30,692 nucleotides of DNA from a virus. The stretch is taken from positions 1 through 30,692 of IMG/VR virus record IMGVR_UViG_3300032331_004265; one strand, 5' to 3'. The notes beneath the pieces are model-generated. The model saw only the letters and a program-made list of their open reading frames with translations. It made no database searches and had not been told where the DNA came from. Positions within the stretch are counted from its first letter, which is position 1, and each line of letters opens with the position of its first letter. Made by a program: the position numbers and the translations under genes. This document shows, piece after piece, positions 9,592 to 29,768 of the stretch.

Positions 9592-9951
9592 ATGCCTCAG
9601 ATTATAGACTTTGAAACCATGCTCCCAGAGAAACTTCTTAATATCTTTTGTTTTGCAAGAGACGAAGATTATTTCGTCGATGATGACGATGATGAAGAAG
9701 AAGATTATAATGATTACGAAGATGATTACGACGACGACGAAGAAGATGAAGATGAAGATGAAGATGAAGATGAAGATGATGACTGGGGCGACGGGGGAGA
9801 ATGGAAAGAAGTCGGGGACGATGATGAGGATGAGGATGAAGATTGGGACGATGAAGAGGATGAAGAGGATGATGAGGATGATTGGGACGATGAGGATGAA
9901 GAAGACGAAGAGGACGATTGGGATGAGGATGAAGAAGATGATGATGACTAA
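9592..9951 (+). CDS. Extremely acidic Asp/Glu-rich protein
   Basis: The 119-residue protein has a short ordinary start (MPQIIDFETMLPEKLLNIFCFARDED; residues 1-26). The remaining ~95 residues are overwhelmingly Asp and Glu, with periodic Trp in DDW/EDDW contexts and a few Tyr. GAT/GAA/GAC/GAG codons make the DNA nearly repetitive, especially at 9742..9780. An AAGAAAGGAAAGG Shine-Dalgarno precedes the ATG, and a strong terminator follows, so it is probably expressed on its own at a high level. Known proteins of such composition mimic DNA, buffer cations, or chaperone basic proteins. Which applies here cannot be told. The sparse aromatic residues spaced along the acidic chain argue against pure coding noise. 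It lies immediately upstream of the terminase gene. Confidence 0.88.
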   Translation: MPQIIDFETMLPEKLLNIFCFARDEDYFVDDDDDEEEDYNDYEDDYDDDEEDEDEDEDEDEDDDWGDGGEWKEVGDDDEDEDEDWDDEEDEEDDEDDWDDEDEEDEEDDWDEDEEDDDD

Positions 9952-17694: not shown

Positions 17695-18702
17695 TTAATT
17701 AGCAGCTTCGGAAGCTAACAAGCAGCCTCTGGCAACACTATAAAGTGGATCTTTTGGCTGAATAACCTCGCCTATCTTGATAGTAAGGTCTGCTTCTTTT
17801 AAGCATTGTGCTAACATATCTTTAAAGCCTGGAGGGCTGGATGTGCCGCCCGCAATAACGAAGTCTATCTCTTGATCTGTCTTAACACTTTTAGATGTAT
17901 TCTGAAGACCTTTTTTGATCCCAGTAACAGTATGCTCTAGCATTATTCTATATTGCGTTTGTATGGCTCTTTCTACAAGGGTGGTGGCTGGTTTGGTTAA
18001 ATCTACCTTTGTTTTTTCTTTATTTATAAAAGTAGTACTTTCGCCAGTAGCTTTGGCAGCCATTTTATCAATCCAGTCTCCACTGTTGACAATAGAAAAT
18101 GAAAATAAAGGGTTTCCAAACATTGCAAAACAAACATTTACCATACCCCCACCAAAACTCATTCCCACGCCTGTAAAGGCTTTGTGAGATAGTTCCGCAT
18201 AAACTAAGGCTAATGCTTCATTTATCGGTCTGGGGTCAAGTGTAAAGCCTTGTTCTGATTTATAGGCTTTGAATATAGCCTCTAATATTTTTCCATGATA
18301 TTCAGCATCTGTTTCTTCGTTTATTGCGTTTGCTGGAACACAGTAATATAATATTTCCTTATCTTTGCTTATTTCTCCAATTAAACTATGGATCATAATG
18401 CTTAATATTTGAAAAGCATCCTTTTCTTTCGGATTCACGCAGCCAGATGTCATAGGTCTCTTTAACTCTAGTCCGCTCATTGTGTAAGCCATATTAACCG
18501 CTGCTTCGCCCAAGGCGTATGCTACTTTTTCTCTTTCAATCAGAGGAACGCCTGCATTTTTCATCATGTTGAAGACAAATTTGTTTTCCAAAGGCATCTC
18601 CAGAAAAGCATTTATTTCTTTTTTATAAGTAAAATTATTTGATTCATCTCTTTTGCAGCAGACGAGCGTATAAGTTCCAACGTCAAATCCAACTCTCGAC
18701 AT
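17695..18702 (-). CDS. Actin-like ATPase (ParM/MreB/Hsp70 superfamily)
   Basis: The 335-residue protein has the actin-fold nucleotide motifs: phosphate-1 GFDVGTYTLV (5-14), connect-1 NEALALVYAE with Glu162, phosphate-2 VGMSFGGGMVNV (179-190) and adenosine FVIAGGTSSPPG (281-292). In most actin-fold ATPases the phosphate-2 loop begins with Asp (D-x-G-G-G-T); here it is Ser182, so hydrolysis may be altered. Filament-forming homologues segregate DNA or position phage replication centres. The ribosome site GGGTGGTTAATT overlaps the end of the 77-residue gene, which ends 2 bases upstream. This tight link makes the small protein a candidate partner. Confidence 0.85.
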   Translation of the reverse strand: MSRVGFDVGTYTLVCCKRDESNNFTYKKEINAFLEMPLENKFVFNMMKNAGVPLIEREKVAYALGEAAVNMAYTMSGLELKRPMTSGCVNPKEKDAFQILSIMIHSLIGEISKDKEILYYCVPANAINEETDAEYHGKILEAIFKAYKSEQGFTLDPRPINEALALVYAELSHKAFTGVGMSFGGGMVNVCFAMFGNPLFSFSIVNSGDWIDKMAAKATGESTTFINKEKTKVDLTKPATTLVERAIQTQYRIMLEHTVTGIKKGLQNTSKSVKTDQEIDFVIAGGTSSPPGFKDMLAQCLKEADLTIKIGEVIQPKDPLYSVARGCLLASEAAN

Positions 18703-20342: not shown

Positions 20343-21187
20343 GTTAAATAATTTTTAATGTCTTCTTTCTTTATATACTCAGCATTATCAAGTTTTTTTC
20401 CGCTGCAATGATAATACGCTTTTCTTCCACTTTTTGTAAACCAATATAAACAACAATCTATAATTTCATTGGCTATATTTTGTTGGGGATAAGTGTATAA
20501 ACCATTCTCCAGTTGTATGCTTCCTGGCTTATTATCTTCAAAAGAATCGTCGCAACATAACAATATCACTTCACTGCAGTTAAATTTATATGCGAGTTGT
20601 ATAGAGGCACAGATTGGATTTCTATAATCATCTATTTGAAAATAAGCATCAGAAGATTTATTGAAATTGAAATTATCTTCATTGGCTGGGCTATATCTGT
20701 ATTTAATTCCACTATAGTTTTCTAAAAATTCTGGATATGTTCTATTAGATGCTATGCATTTGGGCAAACTTCTTTTGTTTGGAAGAAATCTTAAACAATC
20801 TTGGTATGGGTTATTAACAACATAATAATTTAGAGAGGTTGAATTATTATTCCACTTTTTTAAAGAGTTATTTACACCCATAAAACAAACTCCATTTATT
20901 TTCTTTAAAAAAGTATGTACTTCATTAAAATCATATCCATCTGAAATTATTATTGCTGTATTATAATTATTGCTTTCCGCATCAGCCCAAGAATATTTTT
21001 TTCTATTATTTTCAAATTCATTTTTCAATAAAATGAAATATTCATTTTCGTTAATAGTTTTGTTTATGTCTATAGCTTGAGAAGAATTATTGCAAAAATT
21101 TCTTATCCAAAAATTATAATTTGGAGTTTTGATAAATTCGTTGTTTTTTACTTTTTTGGTTCTTGCTAACATTTTATTTACTTGCAT
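20339..21187 (-). CDS. Possible MptE/DUF115-like Rossmann-fold protein (glycan-related?)
   Basis: The protein has 282 residues from ATG 21187. ATG 21172, 5 bases past the upstream stop, is equally possible, and a TTG at 21205 is less likely. The core looks Rossmann-like: NYNTAIIISDGYDFNEVHTFLKKINGV, then CFMGVNNSLKKW, an aromatic middle, then ASIQLAYKFNCSEVILLCCDDSF and a C-terminal helix plus AYYHCSGKKLDN. This order resembles MptE-like/DUF115 proteins, some of which act with Maf-type glycosyltransferases, but it is a weak resemblance. It directly follows the repeat protein at 21178..23127 and overlaps the 93-residue gene by 4 bases. If the assignment is right it could modify those appendage proteins. 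Confidence 0.55.
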   Translation of the reverse strand: MQVNKMLARTKKVKNNEFIKTPNYNFWIRNFCNNSSQAIDINKTINENEYFILLKNEFENNRKKYSWADAESNNYNTAIIISDGYDFNEVHTFLKKINGVCFMGVNNSLKKWNNNSTSLNYYVVNNPYQDCLRFLPNKRSLPKCIASNRTYPEFLENYSGIKYRYSPANEDNFNFNKSSDAYFQIDDYRNPICASIQLAYKFNCSEVILLCCDDSFEDNKPGSIQLENGLYTYPQQNIANEIIDCCLYWFTKSGRKAYYHCSGKKLDNAEYIKKEDIKNYLT

Positions 21188-23127
21188 GGAACGATTGCTA
21201 CACAATTAAGCTTTTGATCATCTCCTGTGATCTTACTTATATCTAATTGTATTTTAACATCTATCGGAGATCCCTTATAGACCATTTCTATTTCTGGTTT
21301 TTCTGGCATCAACAATTGTATTGTAGATGGAATGTTTCCGTTTATTTCTATAACGGGAGGTATTCCAACAACTTGTATCTGACTAGGTATGCCAGAAGCA
21401 TCGATCTTTATCTCTCTTGGGAAATTATCTGGGATATTTAACCCGATAAACTCTGGTATATCACTCTTTATTTGTATTATGGTTGGGACACTTGTGGCAT
21501 CTAAAAATATAGATTTTGGTATCTCTGTATCAGATGTTATCCTAATCTCAGATGGAATTCTTATATCTGGAGCCACTATTTTTATTTGATCCGGCAGATC
21601 TACTTTGTCTATTTTTATCGAGGATGGTATATTTGAAGCATCTACTGTGAGTGGCGGAATATTTGGTGGAACAATATTGATTACAGAGGGTATCCCCAGA
21701 CTGTCAACTTCTATTGTGGCGTTCATAGAAGCGTTTCTGTTATTCAAAGATTCATAAGATTCATAATTATTGAGTCCTTGTATAAATGAAGCACCTCCTG
21801 TGGGGCATTGAACTGTAACTATTGCGCTAAGAACTGGTGGAAGCCAACCGCCTCTTGGTCCAAGCGTATTTCCACCCCAGTCTATAACCATCGTTGGTGT
21901 TGTAAAAGATATGACAGGAGGAATATCCTCCATTCCTATAACTCTTATAAGAGCAGGAATACTGGGCGGCATACCAATAACACTTATTGTTTCGGGCACA
22001 CTAAAGCCAGTGGGGTTCATGACAGTAATTTTTGATGGAAGACTAAATCCACCATCTACATATATTGGAGATAATCCAATATACGAAGTTAAAGATCCAC
22101 TTATATCTATTTTTATTGGAGATATTCCTATCGAAGGTATGTTTATGGGAGTTATTGATATTGGGGGTATATTTATTGGTGATATCGTTATTTTACTAGG
22201 AATATTGATTGGAGATATTCCTATGTTTATAGAAGAAGGCACCGATGCAATATTACCAACATCCAAACACGGAAACACAATAGGTGGCAAATTATATTTG
22301 TTTGGAGGTGTGGAAAAAGGCGTGATTAATATTGGAGGTATATCTGGTGGAGGAGGTATCGGAATTTCCAAAGGAGTTATAACCTCAGCCACTACAGGCT
22401 CTATAGAAGCAGTTCTATTGGTTGGAGTAAACGTGACCGAACAATTATCATTAAAGATTGTTAAGACAGGATCTGGTGTTGAGTTTGGAGCATATGTATG
22501 AGTTCCCTGTAAAACATTTGTAGTATAATTTCCATCTCCAAAATCTAATCTGAAAGTTGTGAAAGATCCATTTATTTCTACCAAATACTGAGAGATTATT
22601 CCGGTAGTCAAACTACTTTCAAGTATGTTAAATGTAAAATTAACATCAGGACATCCATAATCATCAAATATGGCGGGAACAGACTGTAGATTTCTTATTC
22701 TCCAATCAAGTGTATCTTTATCGGTAGAAAAATTGTTTCCTATGAATTCTTGTATATTTATAACAGCATCTACTATTTGGTTATGATGTTCTGCTATTAC
22801 AAATCCTCTTACTTTAACGCCCGAATGATTATATTTTGTCTCTTCTCCGCCTAAGTTACGAACACATTCTTTAAATCTAAAAACTCTTTGTTCTCCATTT
22901 ACAAGCTTTTTTTCAACATTGTTATAATAAAACAATTCGCCATCTATGTTTGCAAAGCCATTGTTTGACCACAATTCATCACCCTCAGACGGTCTTATTT
23001 CTATCTCGTCAGACCAAGGAGCGTTATCTTTAGCTAATATTGCCTCAGATGTGTTAAACACAAGAAACAATGTATCATCAGAGTCATACTTATCGGGATA
23101 TAGCGGATTTGGTGGTGGTCTGGTCAA
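21178..23127 (-). CDS. Appendage protein: AEHHN domain, PKD-like domain and ~20 IPxxIxI repeats
   Basis: The 649-residue protein begins at TTG 23127, supported by GAGGT 9 bases upstream; the nearby ATGs are out of frame and stop at once. Residues 1-130 form a domain shared with the next two upstream genes and ending in AEHHNQIVDAVINIQEFIG. Residues about 155-240 look PKD-like, with LDFGDG at 193-198. A Pro-rich hinge (250-280) leads to about 20 copies of a [I/L/V]-P-x-x-I-x-[I/V] unit (295-605, spacing about 9-14 residues), broken by a non-repetitive insert near 412-470. A short Cys-containing end follows. The regular Pro plus alternating Ile pattern predicts a stacked beta fibre or solenoid. 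It is probably a virion fibre. The repeat family is not one I can name. Confidence 0.8.
   Translation of the reverse strand: MTRPPPNPLYPDKYDSDDTLFLVFNTSEAILAKDNAPWSDEIEIRPSEGDELWSNNGFANIDGELFYYNNVEKKLVNGEQRVFRFKECVRNLGGEETKYNHSGVKVRGFVIAEHHNQIVDAVINIQEFIGNNFSTDKDTLDWRIRNLQSVPAIFDDYGCPDVNFTFNILESSLTTGIISQYLVEINGSFTTFRLDFGDGNYTTNVLQGTHTYAPNSTPDPVLTIFNDNCSVTFTPTNRTASIEPVVAEVITPLEIPIPPPPDIPPILITPFSTPPNKYNLPPIVFPCLDVGNIASVPSSINIGISPINIPSKITISPINIPPISITPINIPSIGISPIKIDISGSLTSYIGLSPIYVDGGFSLPSKITVMNPTGFSVPETISVIGMPPSIPALIRVIGMEDIPPVISFTTPTMVIDWGGNTLGPRGGWLPPVLSAIVTVQCPTGGASFIQGLNNYESYESLNNRNASMNATIEVDSLGIPSVINIVPPNIPPLTVDASNIPSSIKIDKVDLPDQIKIVAPDIRIPSEIRITSDTEIPKSIFLDATSVPTIIQIKSDIPEFIGLNIPDNFPREIKIDASGIPSQIQVVGIPPVIEINGNIPSTIQLLMPEKPEIEMVYKGSPIDVKIQLDISKITGDDQKLNCVAIVPCK
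21313..22245 (-). repeat. Degenerate protein-level tandem repeat, IPxxIxI
   Basis: The DNA units have diverged, but the protein repeat is clear: examples are VPSSINI, IPSKITI, VPETISV, IPSVINI, LPDQIKI, IPSEIRI, FPREIKI, IPSQIQV and IPSTIQL. Successive units are often joined by a Gly/Asp/Asn or by ISP/ITP. There are roughly 20 copies in residues 295-605. The lack of DNA-level identity indicates an old, selected repeat rather than a recent expansion. Confidence 0.88.
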
Positions 23128-23142
23128 TTCATGTACCTCATA

Positions 23143-25731
23143 TTAATATATTGTAGATAGCCATTGTTTTTCACCCTCACCGCCAGGTCTGCCTCCAAGA
23201 TATCTGAAGGTTAGATCTATATCGTTGAATTTTATGAAAGACTTAGTGCTATAATCATAACTTATATATACATTATGATCCTCATCAGAAGTTGCAAATA
23301 AAGTTTGATTTAAATCATCAAAACCAGTGACGGTGGGATCTTGAAGTGATTTAAAAGCAGTAGAACCAACCCCAGGACCACCCGTAGACCAAACGCCTGT
23401 TGTGGAATTAAACACAGATATAGCCCCGGAGTTGTTAAATAGAAATATAGCACTGGAAAGATTTACAAGCTGACCCTCTGTTTTAGTTGGACCAGAAAGA
23501 TCATTTATTTTTTTAATTTCAGATATTGGGTTGGATGTGGTTCCGCTTGTTTTATAAAAACTTTTAAGTCTGAAGAACTTACCCTCACCAGAGTTTTGAA
23601 GCACATATCCGGAGCCATCTCTCCAAGTCGATCTCTGAAAACTATAACTATCAGAAGGTAAAGTATAGTTTTTAATATCTTCTGCTCCATTTTTAAACGA
23701 ATTTGAATTTAGGCAACATCTTGAATAGCTATGATTTGATATAGACGCAGAAATAATACTTGTGTCAATCTGATGGGTTTCATTTGACATCGATGTTACA
23801 GCAGGATTGCTACAATCTTTGTTCCCACAGGTGGAAATGCCCACGCCCTTATTGCCCAAAATAAAATAAAGATTATCTCCCGATGATAATCCAGCCCAGC
23901 CCCATTGTCTTGATATGCTTGATCCACCTAAATAATAAGCAGAATACACATCATAAAAAGCACTATATTTTTGAAAAAATATTCTTTCGTCAGAAACAGG
24001 ATCTGAATCGCCCCTTCCTGTAGCCCAAAATATTAACCCCGAGGAGTTTTTGTCTCCGGATCCATAGTTATCCATTTTAGCAAAACCATTGTTTCTTTCG
24101 AACTCTCTTATGGTTCTACACTTTTCGCTATATGAGTAACAACTGTCGCAACATTTTGTTCCGCAATCACAACCGCTCTCTATATCAACATCCCCTAGAA
24201 AGCTACTATCAAAGTATGGATTTATATCGAAAGGAGTGTTTAAAGTCTTAAATGTTTCGCTTATAAGTCCAAATTCATGAGAAATAATTTCGCTTGATCT
24301 ACCTTTTGTCCATAGCCATAAATTTGAATTTTCTATAACATCTATGCTAGATTTGAAGTTTGTTATTCTATAGTTTCCGCTATAAGTATCTGTTCTCAAA
24401 ACAACATCATAAATACCGCCAACGCTAAATGCTGCTGTTGTGTAGCTTTGATTAAGATGAGCTAAATCGTCATTTATTCCCCATGTATAAGAATTTATTG
24501 GATCAGAAGAGTTTTGACCATTTTTTAAAACTCCGACATCATCTGCTGCTATGGAAATAGCAACGTATGTATTTATTGGTGATGTTATCCTATACAGCCT
24601 ATTGTTTTTTATGCAAGAGTCAGAATCACACCCATCTATTACTATTTCTTGACCCAAGTATGTCTGTGTTTCACCTGGGGCAAATTCTATTTCGGCTTCT
24701 GATGGACAAAAATCTCTAACATTAACTATATTTTTAAGAACGCATGTATCTGATCCAAAATCATTAGTAACAGTTAAAGACGCATCATTAAACCCAGAAT
24801 TTTCATATGTATAAACCAACTTATCCTGATCTAAGTTTAAATAAACAGTTAGTCCGCCTATCACATCCCCGCCGTCTCCTATTAACAATCTATATTTTGG
24901 ATTATTTCTTGTAGAAGAATATGTTATATCAAAAGAATCACTGTTTCCAACATCAATATAAGTTTCCCAATCATCTGTAGATTTTTGTAAAACATAAGTT
25001 TCAGGGAAAAAAGTTTCTGTTATTTCTATACTGACAGTTGTCAATACCTCGCCAGTACCTAAAGTCTTAAAATTAAAGTATTTTTTATAAGCAAAATAAT
25101 TGTTGGATCCGTAGTTAAAATTCCATTTATGTTCTGTTGACTTACTAGTTCCGTCAGTGCCCAACCTAAAACTCAAATCGGTAAAAGATACAGTGATTGG
25201 CTTTAATCCTATTCTTTTATCTACACTGAACCAAGCTTTGGGAGCCAAAACTAGATACCTTAGATAGTTGGTTCTTTGTTCAATCGTACCTTCCAAAGGT
25301 TTGATTGCTCTTTCACCCTTTACGCCGGCAAACTTTTCTATATTTATAACAGCATCTTTTAAAGAATTATGATGTTCAGCCATTACATTTTGAGTAATAT
25401 TTGTTATGTCTTTATATTTTTTTACATCCTCAAAACCAGATAAAATATTAAGACCACTAAAGTATGCTGTTGTTGAAGAAGTTATTGTTTTTGTTGTATA
25501 ATAAAAAGATGTGGCTCTTTGTTTTATTTCTTCACACTGATCTGTAAGGGTTAATATTCCACCACCTCTTGATTGATCTGGAAATCTTGATATAGCCTCC
25601 TCTGTTCCATATACATATATTTTTGAGTCGCCAGGAGTATAATCTTCTGCCAAGTAGACTCTTAGATAGTCATGAACTTCATATAAATTTTTGTTTGTAT
25701 CAAAATTTTCTGGATAATTACTGAGGTTCAT
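23143..25731 (-). CDS. Large appendage protein: AEHHN domain, PKD-like region, Cys cluster, propeller-like C terminus
   Basis: The 862-residue protein starts with AGGAAAAAA before ATG 25731. Residues 1-160 match its two neighbours (YPENFDTNKNLYEVHDYLRVYL... and AEHHNSLKDAVINIEKFAG at 118-136). Residues about 165-350 contain a PKD-like unit (AWFSVDKRIGLKPITVSFTDLSF) but with WNFNYG in place of WDFGDG. A Cys cluster near 525-545 (CDCGTKCCDSC) could bind metal or form disulfides. From about residue 480 on, segments such as NLWLWTKGRSS, GLIFWATGRGD, NLYFILGNKGVG and AIFLFNNSGAISVF recur like blades of an RCC1/kelch-type propeller. No signal peptide is present. The likely role is a tail or fibre component. 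The propeller call is tentative. Confidence 0.77.
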   Translation of the reverse strand: MNLSNYPENFDTNKNLYEVHDYLRVYLAEDYTPGDSKIYVYGTEEAISRFPDQSRGGGILTLTDQCEEIKQRATSFYYTTKTITSSTTAYFSGLNILSGFEDVKKYKDITNITQNVMAEHHNSLKDAVINIEKFAGVKGERAIKPLEGTIEQRTNYLRYLVLAPKAWFSVDKRIGLKPITVSFTDLSFRLGTDGTSKSTEHKWNFNYGSNNYFAYKKYFNFKTLGTGEVLTTVSIEITETFFPETYVLQKSTDDWETYIDVGNSDSFDITYSSTRNNPKYRLLIGDGGDVIGGLTVYLNLDQDKLVYTYENSGFNDASLTVTNDFGSDTCVLKNIVNVRDFCPSEAEIEFAPGETQTYLGQEIVIDGCDSDSCIKNNRLYRITSPINTYVAISIAADDVGVLKNGQNSSDPINSYTWGINDDLAHLNQSYTTAAFSVGGIYDVVLRTDTYSGNYRITNFKSSIDVIENSNLWLWTKGRSSEIISHEFGLISETFKTLNTPFDINPYFDSSFLGDVDIESGCDCGTKCCDSCYSYSEKCRTIREFERNNGFAKMDNYGSGDKNSSGLIFWATGRGDSDPVSDERIFFQKYSAFYDVYSAYYLGGSSISRQWGWAGLSSGDNLYFILGNKGVGISTCGNKDCSNPAVTSMSNETHQIDTSIISASISNHSYSRCCLNSNSFKNGAEDIKNYTLPSDSYSFQRSTWRDGSGYVLQNSGEGKFFRLKSFYKTSGTTSNPISEIKKINDLSGPTKTEGQLVNLSSAIFLFNNSGAISVFNSTTGVWSTGGPGVGSTAFKSLQDPTVTGFDDLNQTLFATSDEDHNVYISYDYSTKSFIKFNDIDLTFRYLGGRPGGEGEKQWLSTIY

Positions 25732-25738
25732 TTTTTTC

Positions 25739-27133
25739 CTAATCTATTGTTATTTCTTCTTTTAAGAATGCTTTTTTAATTGTTTGGTTATTAAACAAAA
25801 CAAACACAGAAGGATTATATGTTGAAGATGGATGATTTATTTTATAAATAAAATTTATAGTATGAATATTTGGATCTGTTTCTGTGTAGTTTCTAATTAT
25901 ATCAGGACTCCATTTATTCTGATTATTATAACTACCATTGATTGCACCGATTTTACCCGCATTTATAGACTCAGGTAATTCAAATCCACTTATTATAAGT
26001 CCTGTTTCGTCTATGTATGATATTTTGCCGAATTTGGTTTTTATTTCTCCATCTTCATCATAAGCAAAAACCAATATTTGATTAGTGTATGGATATAATA
26101 AAAAATTTCTAATATCATCTTTAAATGTAAGTTTGTGTGATGTGCCGCCATTATTGTTTACCTCGCAAGAATAGAATTTTTTAATTACACATCCATCACC
26201 ATTAAAATTCCAATATCTTTCTTTTACATCACCATCAGTTTGATCTACAAATTCAAAAACAGTTGGATTTTCGCCATTAAAATTTTCATCTTGATCAAAA
26301 TAAAAAGAAAAACCGCTGGTCACATTTGGGGTTGTTGTTAAAACATCAAATCCATCTGGGGAATTTTTGACATAAAAAAACGGTGGTCTCAATGTATCAT
26401 CAACTTTAATATAATTGTTTTTTGTAACTATTCCTTGACCACCTAACACACTCACAACAACAAGCTCGACAGAATAAGATCCTTCTTTTGCATATGTGTG
26501 AATTGGATTTTTTTCAGTAGATGTTGTTCCGTCCCCAAAATCCCAAAAACATCTAATCAAAGGTCCGTTTAATTCATTTGGTGCCATTCCAAGGCTAAAA
26601 TTTTGAAAAGAAACTGTGAGAGGAGCACCACCAGAAACAGGAAATGCTCTAAACAAAGGCTTGGGTGTAAGAAACTTATTTTCTTGTGCTTTTAATATAC
26701 CGTGTAGAGAAATATCATTTGGATTTGACTTCAAGCCCAGATTAATTTCTGTTTTTATGATCGCATCTTTAACAGCATTATGGTGCTCAGCACTCACTGA
26801 ATTAGTCACAGTGCTGCCCAAACTCCATTGATTTTGTCTTGATCCTGCAAAACCACGAACTAGGTTATTAAAAGTATTGTTTGTTCTAGAGGCGTAGTAT
26901 ATTAATTCTCCTGAATTGAATTTCTTGTTTGTTATTCTTATTAAGCCCTGAGGAGGAAATCCTGACGCATCTTCAACAATAATTTTTTTTGCAGAATATC
27001 CAACACTTTGTTTTAAAGCGGTTGTTGCATTATTTCTAACTTCATACAAGCTATCTTTAGTATCAACAGCTTCTGGATACAAAGAAAGATCACCAGTTAT
27101 ATAACCATTATTTAAACTATCAATTCTTGCCAT
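25739..27133 (-). CDS. Appendage protein: AEHHN domain plus PKD domain
   Basis: The protein has 464 residues from ATG 27133, chosen because AGGTGCGTCAA precedes it; a GTG at 27142 is in frame but lacks such a site. Residues 1-150 are the shared domain: YPEAVDTKDSLYEV, GELIYYASRTNNTFNNLVRG and AEHHNAVKDAIIKTEINLG (115-133). Residues 160-235 are a clear PKD domain, with PLTVSFQNFS, CFWDFGDGTTS (WDFGDG 197-202) and HTYAKEGSYSVELVV. The remainder is beta-rich (FDQDENFNGENPTVFEF, LTFKDDIRNFLLYPY, and others). It overlaps the coiled-coil gene upstream by 14 bases and lies 7 bases before the next paralog. PKD domains mediate protein or glycan contact at surfaces, so a tail-surface role is likely. 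Confidence 0.82.
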   Translation of the reverse strand: MARIDSLNNGYITGDLSLYPEAVDTKDSLYEVRNNATTALKQSVGYSAKKIIVEDASGFPPQGLIRITNKKFNSGELIYYASRTNNTFNNLVRGFAGSRQNQWSLGSTVTNSVSAEHHNAVKDAIIKTEINLGLKSNPNDISLHGILKAQENKFLTPKPLFRAFPVSGGAPLTVSFQNFSLGMAPNELNGPLIRCFWDFGDGTTSTEKNPIHTYAKEGSYSVELVVVSVLGGQGIVTKNNYIKVDDTLRPPFFYVKNSPDGFDVLTTTPNVTSGFSFYFDQDENFNGENPTVFEFVDQTDGDVKERYWNFNGDGCVIKKFYSCEVNNNGGTSHKLTFKDDIRNFLLYPYTNQILVFAYDEDGEIKTKFGKISYIDETGLIISGFELPESINAGKIGAINGSYNNQNKWSPDIIRNYTETDPNIHTINFIYKINHPSSTYNPSVFVLFNNQTIKKAFLKEEITID

Positions 27134-27794
27134 TTGACGCACCTAATTTTTTCGTATATTCATTTTGCAAATTAATCATATTGGACTGTAAAGCGTTTAA
27201 TTTATTTAAAACTTGTTGTTTTATTGGAATGTCATCAGGCAGAGACAAAACAGTCTCCACTAGATCTATATCTATATTATTTTCAAGTAAAATTTTAAGG
27301 TTCATTTTTTCTAATAGCTTTGTTCCCCAATACTCTTTTTGAGCTTCAAAATCATCAAAATTTTTAAGGGGCTCTATTTTTTCAATATTTTTGTATGTTT
27401 GGAGAAAAAACTCAGATTCTTCTTCTATAAATCTTTTCTTTTCTTGAAGATCTGAGATTGTGTTCTTAACACCTTCTACAGCTCTATTTAATTGTCTTTG
27501 TTTTATCTTGAGTTCTTTTACAGCAAGATCGTCTGTTTCTTGATCTTTTAATTTATTTAATTTTAAAATATTAATTTCTTGAAGTTCTAATTTATCTTTT
27601 TCTTCATCAATTTGTAATATTATGTTTTTTAAATTGTCTCTTCTTAATTTCAATTCTCTTAGGCATTGCCACATCTTGGCTTGATTTGTTGGTTCTTTGC
27701 CTATTAAAAAATATTTTAATTGAAAATAACTGTGTCTTGAGATCACATCGGCTTTTAATAAGTCATCCATTTTTTCAATTAATTCTGTGGGCAT
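27120..27794 (-). CDS. Coiled-coil protein of unknown function
   Basis: The 224-residue protein is helical almost throughout. Residues about 1-40 are a small globular helical part (KADVISRHSYFQLKYFLIG). Residues about 45-135 are a long coiled coil with dense Lys/Glu/Leu heptads. A gap with Phe/Asp/Trp (NFDDFEAQKEYWG) is followed by two more helices. No membrane segment or signal is present. It lies between the propeller protein and the three AEHHN paralogs and overlaps the first of them by 14 bases, so it may be an assembly chaperone or connector for these fibres. That role is inferred from position only. Confidence 0.72.
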   Translation of the reverse strand: MPTELIEKMDDLLKADVISRHSYFQLKYFLIGKEPTNQAKMWQCLRELKLRRDNLKNIILQIDEEKDKLELQEINILKLNKLKDQETDDLAVKELKIKQRQLNRAVEGVKNTISDLQEKKRFIEEESEFFLQTYKNIEKIEPLKNFDDFEAQKEYWGTKLLEKMNLKILLENNIDIDLVETVLSLPDDIPIKQQVLNKLNALQSNMINLQNEYTKKLGASNGKN

Positions 27795-27863: not shown

Positions 27864-29768
27864 TTATGTTGAATAAAGAGAAACAGTCACGCTACTGCTA
27901 GATATTACAAATTTACCATTTCCGTAAGCCACAGAGGTCCAAGTTGCAGAAACAGGTAGGTTGATCCCACTCCAATTTAATCCATCCATAGAAAAAGCCG
28001 CAATCGACGAAGGACCACCGACAGCAATCCATTTTCCATCACCAAAGGCTATGCTCGTCCAATTTAAAGTAGCTGGCATTCTCAAGGACGTCCAGCTAAC
28101 TCCATCAACACTGGTGGCTGCGTAAAGACCATTGCAAACTGCAACAAACCGCCCAGCCCCATATGCAACACCATTCCACACAGCCGAAAAGGGAAGCGTT
28201 GATGCCGTCCAATTTATTTGATTTGTGGATCTGATGCATTTGTTTGTAAGTATAGAAGAAGTTGTGAGATTTCCATTTAATCCTCTGCCAACAGCAACAG
28301 ATATGGTAGGACTATTTGCTATTCCTCTAACTTCACACAAATCAGCATGAGCCGTCGCCCCAGCCCAACCATCTGTGAATGTGAGCCCAGATATTGCACC
28401 TGCAGCCCAATTTGCGCCGTCAACAGAATAATTTAGTATTACATTTTTAGGACTTCCAAGTCCCCATGTTCCTAAAAATCCAAAAAACCTACCATTCAGA
28501 AAAGAAATTTCTTGACAACCAGGAATACCGTGTGAATTAGATGGAGTTCCTATGCTGAACGAGCCTGTAGCTATTGCATAAGGCAAATAAGATTGGGCAG
28601 ACCAATTACTACTATCAGGGCTAGTATAGGGGAAACATCTTATTGCGCCCGAACTGATAGATGCCGCCTTCCAAGCCAACCAATTTCCCCCGCCAAACAC
28701 AGGAGTATTAGACATAACAACCGAGCTAGCTTGCCATGTAATTCCATCTGAAGACATGGAGCCCCCGCGACCTGAAAATTTATTTCCCCAAAATCCAATC
28801 TCAATAGGAGCGTTTGCCCACAAATTCCAAATAGGAGGAGTGGCAGTCGGCGTAGGAGTAGCAGTTGGAGTTCTTGTTGGAGTTGGAGTAGCAGTTGAAG
28901 TTCTTGTTGGAGTTGGAGTAGCAGTTGGAGTTCTTGTTGGAGTTGGAGTAGCAGTTGGAGTTCTTGTTGGTGTGGCTGTAGCGGTTGGTGTTCTTGTTGG
29001 AGTTGGGGTGGCAGTAGCAGTGGCGGTTGGCGTTGGGGTGGCAGTTGGAGTTCTTGTTGGTGTGGCTGTAGCGGTTGGTGTAGGAGTAGCCGTTGGAGTT
29101 CTTGTTGGCGTTGGTGTAGCAGTTGGAGTAGCAGTGGCGGTTGGCGTTGGGGTGGCAGTAGCAGTGGCGGTTGGCGTTGGGGTGGCAGTAGCAGTGGCGG
29201 TTGGCGTTGGTGTCGGTGTTGGTGGGTATGTAAATCCTGGGGGTGTCGCAGATGGCGTTGGAGTAATGCCTGGAGGTAGACCTAGGTCATACCCAACAGA
29301 CTTACTTACAAACAAATATGTTTTTTCGTTTTGTAAATTAGAATTAATCGAAGATCCTGGATTCCAAGAAAGCAGACTAAGACCAGAATTAGATTCCATA
29401 TAAACTGCAGATAATTTATTTTTAATTTCAAGGCTTAAGTTGTTTAAATTAAAGTTTGCGTTATTTCTATAAGTTATAAATTGATATGTTTTTGAAACAT
29501 ATCCATTTTGATAAGGAATAAGTGTTTCTATGTCTATGGAATATGATGAGAAGCCTATATTGTTACTGATAATATAATATGTTTTTCCACTCTCAAGTAA
29601 ACTAAAATTAGATATCTGATTTGGACGCCAAGATAAAAGAGAAGATCCACTTGGTGATTCGGTTAGTATTGAAGAGATTTTATTTTTAGTCTCTGTGGGT
29701 AAAAGATTGAGAGAATAATTCTCGCCAGAGTAAGAAAAAAATTGATTTATTTTTGTTATAACCAACAT
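27864..29768 (-). CDS. Propeller-type appendage protein on a Thr-Pro stalk
   Basis: The 634-residue protein starts at ATG 29768 after AGGTATTTAAT. Residues about 8-80 and 93-163 are two copies of one domain (shared ...[19 protein letters not shown]... and ...[19 protein letters not shown]..., each followed by KTYYIISN or KTYLFVSK). Residues 169-312 are a long Thr-Pro-Ala-Arg stalk. Residues 313-634 carry blades of the type S-x-DG-x-x-W-x-x-x-x-x-P, then W-x-x-V-A-Y-G-x-G-x-F-V-A-V, seen for example in [29 protein letters not shown] and [11 protein letters not shown]. That pattern is typical of sialidase-like beta-propellers in phage tail or receptor-binding proteins. It probably presents a host-binding head at the end of a stalk. 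Enzymatic residues were not identified. Confidence 0.82.
28833..29264 (-). repeat. Thr-Pro stalk minisatellite with 30-bp units
   Basis: The region encodes residues 169-312 of the 634-residue protein as alternating Thr with Pro, Ala or Arg. At DNA level four adjacent 30-bp units (28861..28890, 28891..28920, 28921..28950, 28951..28980) are nearly identical; the second has one change and the last diverges at its end. Looser variants continue to about 29230. All units preserve frame, so stalk length can change by slippage or recombination. Confidence 0.92.

Follow-up and report, generated by a model that had tools for sequence, protein, structure and literature searches.

To our knowledge, few viral fibrous beta folds are known, and each was found via a solved structure. 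The triple beta-spiral is built on a 15-residue repeat (positions a-o), with hydrophobic residues at c, e, g, k and m and Gly or Pro at j (PMC3150272). The beta-bracelet consists of five-residue strands of alternating hydrophobics joined by 3-residue loops, with a period of 8 residues; that of Orsay virus delta is a pentamer, has a consensus without Pro and pairs its strands between chains (PMC7565637). The triple-stranded beta-helix of T4 gp5 follows a VxGxxxxx octad consensus (PMC4576200).

The window analysed here, 30,692 nucleotides of the IMG/VR virus record IMGVR_UViG_3300032331_004265, encodes on its minus strand a repeat-bearing protein of 649 aa (21178..23127, from the ORF listing and its translation). 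We read it, with a probability of roughly 0.6, as a homo-oligomeric beta fibre that is attached to the baseplate of a large contractile-tailed phage and has constant ends on either side of a shaft of variable length. The putative fibre gene starts with TTG and has GAGG upstream, and this GAGG-TTG context is kept in close relatives. An antisense ORF (21911-22501, plus strand) was set aside as incidental; antisense frames vary in length among the relatives.

The N-terminal domain (residues 1-150, 22678..23127, minus strand) was delimited by blastp to the upstream ORFs and carries an AEHHN motif that is invariant in the alignment. The PKD-like domain (residues 155-237, 22417..22665, minus strand) was identified from pLDDT, Foldseek and the presence of PKD_4 in relatives. 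The first-pass annotation had placed such a domain before the repeats, and this was borne out weakly by sequence (PKD_4 at E=0.015, below the Pfam cut-off, in the window copy; PKD_4 found in 13 of 33 family members) and also by fold, where the best PDB match was 1l0q (YVTN propeller plus PKD, E=5.8e-4). Foldseek also matched 6aem and others and the DFGDG motif is present, so the domain was counted as a PKD member.

The remaining parts, all on the minus strand, are a Pro-rich linker seen in the sequence (residues 238-294, 22246..22416), a variable repeat array delimited by motif counts, omega and length in relatives (residues 295-410, 21898..22245), an insert (residues 411-475, 21703..21897), a fixed-length repeat domain defined from alignments and omega (residues 476-607, 21307..21702) with 11 units of IPxxIxI type, and a C-terminal tip (residues 608-649, 21181..21306). 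The insert reads VIDWG...TVQCP followed by a low-complexity loop, and its counterpart in relatives is WGxPPxxSCxVTVQCP. The tip, recognised by identity among close relatives, reads PEKPEIEMVYKG...C.....PC.

The repeats span residues 295-605 and were counted against shuffles of the same 320 residues (maxima from 5,000 shuffles). The exact motif [ILV]PxxIx[IV] occurs 12 times vs 0.65 in shuffles (maximum 5), the broader [ILVFM]Pxx[ILVF]x[ILVF] 17 times vs 1.6 (maximum 7), and Pxx[ILVF]x[ILVF] within residues 291-610 19 times vs 4.6 (maximum 14). Some 20 regularly spaced copies had been claimed initially; the motif is real in its exact and broader forms, but the copies fall into two clusters with an insert of about 65-75 aa between them, so they do not form a single unbroken array of 20. 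Units of the C-terminal cluster (residues 500-605) follow each other every 9-13 residues; spacing is less regular in the N-terminal cluster (296-410), which holds the 5-residue units SPINI, PPISI and TPINI.

In 58 C-terminal domains of the family, the motif was found 632 times vs 70 in shuffles. Around the Pro of 649 anchors in these domains, a large hydrophobic residue stands at -1 in 94% and at +5 in 89%, position +4 is charged in 55%, position -2 is mostly Gly, Asp or Asn, and position +3 is hydrophobic by the way the anchor was defined. Unit spacing has its main peak at 11 and a second peak at 9. Judged from these residue preferences, the repeat unit is a putative two-sided beta-strand pattern followed by a turn.

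Between units of the window protein, positions with the same residue share the codon in 41% of cases vs 46% expected from the codon usage of the gene. The codons are thus as different as codon usage predicts and the units are old at the DNA level, which agrees with the earlier observation that the DNA units had diverged. Neighbouring units of two relatives (L022 and L018) share 69-74% of codons, above expectation, and this marks recent tandem expansion.

Set against the known folds, the putative fibre resembles the adenovirus and reovirus triple beta-spiral shaft in being a viral fibre with beta repeats, a Pro/Gly turn and alternating hydrophobics (PMC3150272), but the 15-residue pattern is depleted (2 vs 19.5 in shuffles) and the spacing is mostly 8-12 residues. 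With the Orsay virus delta beta-bracelet it would share one short strand per repeat, inward alternating hydrophobics and charged loops (PMC7565637), whereas the 8-residue pattern is not enriched (7 vs 21 in shuffles) and only the alternation is present. T4 gp5 is likewise a phage tail protein with a regular one-strand repeat, and interdigitated chains would be common to both only if the proposed model is right; the VxGxxxxx octad has 0 matches here, and T4 gp5 is a central spike, whereas the relatives here carry a separate gpV/OB gene. Of the known fibres, the beta-bracelet is the closest in idea; for the present protein, pairing between chains is our inference.

The repeats of the window protein and its C-terminal domain had no match in Pfam, PHROGs or PDB, and the protein as a whole had none in PHROGs, so that the repeat still stands without a named family, as had been noted from the sequence. 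No description of an IPxxIxI repeat was found in publications, in a search that covered few subscription papers. A phmmer match of one relative to 9lc0 ('60 kDa protein', E 5e-6) was rejected, since it aligned spaced hydrophobics without the prolines. Also dropped were hits between the WGxPP array of one relative and tail-sheath stabilisers of Vibrio phages, which were composition-like at ~20-25% identity.

Relatives are encoded at ~100 IMG/VR loci. A protein scan gave 45 loci, and scanning with the C-terminal domain confirmed 95, of which 80 were kept; some contigs appear in both lists. Several of the contigs measure 323-381 kb, a 595-kb uncultured phage is among the records, and one bacterial MAG contig also encodes a relative. 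Used as a search query, the whole-protein alignment had no conserved stretch.

Across 35 complete relatives, the length of the region between the PKD and C-terminal domains ranges from 198 to 800 aa, and its units are IPxxIxI, FGPAP or WGxPP, pentads, or mixtures of these. On the tree of the C-terminal domain, unit type (IP-only vs FG/WG, classes separated by an arbitrary cut at five FG/WG units) requires 7 changes, at least 4 of which are forced by well-supported branches. Two contigs that are 99.6% identical over 10.5 kb encode fibre proteins differing by exactly one 11-aa unit, a difference that may be an assembly effect. Contig ends interrupt the gene at 22 of 44 loci, which would fit assemblies being broken by repeats. 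The WGxPP-type array of one relative (L033) matches the PHROG tail protein phrog_6079. Another (L038:4986-8273) has hundreds of residues of PPINI/PPVTI/SPINI pentads and ends at the edge of its 381-kb contig.

Omega was estimated among six related genes: the N-terminal domain gave 0.02-0.12, the C-terminal repeats 0.03-0.14, the C-terminal tip about 0.02 or lower and the variable array 0.10-0.58. These values are rough because many of the comparisons have a dS close to 1 or higher and, for the variable array, because the alignment there is uncertain. The tip is 98-100% identical among the five closest proteins, and C167, P172 and C173 (numbered within the C-terminal domain) are invariant. Many Pro columns of the fixed-length repeat domain are invariant or nearly so in 61 sequences. 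The first-pass annotation held that selection had kept the protein pattern; this applies strongly to the C-terminal cluster and weakly to the N-terminal one, which is fast-evolving and varies among relatives in length and unit type.

In the AlphaFold2 monomer of the full protein (mean pLDDT 48), only the PKD domain was confident (~80-91), and the N-terminus was moderately confident in part. The C-terminal domain, modelled as a monomer with 61 aligned sequences, came out as an extended chain with no DSSP secondary structure, with block pLDDT up to 74 and pTM 0.16. Two matches of low-confidence models were set aside for that reason, one in BFVD to an adenovirus fibre (probability 0.18) and one, the single match of a PDB search with the C-terminal model, at E 9.6. 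A strandless monomer model is as expected if partner chains are needed; the low confidence fits disorder equally, and the monomer models do not separate an oligomeric fibre from a disordered region.

In the main rival to the beta-fibre reading, the repeats are an elastin-like tether, extended and for the most part disordered, that joins the PKD domain to the conserved tip; we give it a minor share of the probability. Besides the low pLDDT across the repeats, such a tether would suit the abundance of Pro, the PPINI/PPVTI pentads in relatives and an array length that is free to change. The composition points the other way: large hydrophobics make up 39% and alternate strictly, Ile recurs at set positions, and charged residues lie between them; the low omega and the invariant Pro and Ile columns of the C-terminal cluster would also be unusual for a linker.

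A single-chain beta solenoid, in which each chain folds alone, had also been suggested from the sequence, and the regular strand-turn period of 9-12 residues, at which about three units could make one turn, would accommodate it. It now appears distinctly improbable: neither AlphaFold2 monomer run gave a confident fold for the repeats, the one with the 61-sequence alignment included, and the chains were extended and of low confidence. The patterns of the left-handed beta-helix ([LIV]Gx4) and the pentapeptide repeat (A(D/N)LxX) had 1 match each in the 58 domains, neither family was matched in Pfam, and there was no PDB match. The trimeric beta fibre proposed alongside the solenoid would be compatible with the data.

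The fibre gene is preceded by two paralogous PKD-containing ORFs on the same strand, one of 862 aa identified by sequence comparison (23143..25731) and one of 467 aa identified by baseplate-wedge and virion structural family matches (25739..27142), to whose N-termini its own N-terminal domain is related (blastp 27% for both, E 5e-6 and 2e-4). The N-terminal region of the 467-aa ORF matches phrog_4406 and phrog_2885; these and phrog_708 (virion structural / baseplate wedge) also match parts of a few relatives. The 862-aa paralogue has a Cys-rich stretch, CDCGTKCCDSCYSYSEKC.

On the other side, an MptE-like gene (PF01973, 20339..21205, minus strand; a weak match, below cut-off) overlaps the end of the fibre gene, and such a gene adjoins it in 7 of 12 related records. 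A volactin-family actin-like protein (PF25216, E=9e-66) is encoded at 17695-18702 (minus strand). Ten of 12 records have its counterpart 2.5-5.2 kb downstream of the fibre gene; the contigs of the remaining two end inside that gene.

The baseplate context was read from relatives, since the window ends before the corresponding genes. Six of seven records have a gp25 gene 9-15 kb upstream of the fibre gene, and the seventh contig begins ~5.6 kb upstream. In a 323-kb relative, the fibre gene follows a block of gpV-OB, gp25, gp6-like, Tail_P2_I and YHYH genes, and the relatives thus have the gp25, gp6-like and gpV-like neighbours of a contractile-tail baseplate module. That the product is some other late protein (an assembly scaffold or cell-surface factor) encoded among tail genes, with no fibre on the virion, would suit a tip so unlike those of host-range fibres and the nearby actin-like gene, but is made quite unlikely by these baseplate genes and by an N-terminal domain common to ORFs of which one matches virion structural families.

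Under the preferred reading of a baseplate-attached oligomeric fibre, the protein would be part of the virion, and its N-terminal domain, common to the two neighbouring structural ORFs, would dock it on the tail. The PKD domain may serve as a spacer or adhesive module, and the IPxxIxI units would build the shaft. Each unit would form a short beta strand, one face lined by Ile (-1, +3 and +5) and the opposite face by polar and charged residues, and then a turn of 3-6 residues; strands from several identical chains, most likely three, would pair between chains into the fibre. The shaft would grow or shrink as units are gained or lost in the DNA. Selection keeps the C-terminal repeat domain and the tip constant, probably so that they can nucleate oligomerisation or bind a conserved partner.

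Receptor-binding fibres usually vary at the tip, but conservation in this protein is highest there, which counts against the fibre reading, as does the lack of fit to any known fibre consensus. We suggest only tentatively that, in a widespread lineage of large phages, IPxxIxI represents a new oligomeric beta-fibre fold of Pro-capped strands with variable spacing, whose length is adjusted as units are rapidly gained and lost between two constant ends. If true, it would be the shaft of an appendage, not the tip, that varies in some large phages, and the ~100 natural variants, differing in unit type and number, would provide a series for the rules of fibre length and stability.

Two further repeats were observed in the window. 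An ORF of 634 aa (27864-29768, minus strand), which matches phrog_15511, has non-repetitive parts on both sides of a long Thr-Pro/Ala-Thr repeat, and an ORF of 119 aa (9592-9951, plus strand) lies over a GAT/GAA-rich (Asp/Glu-coding) low-complexity repeat.
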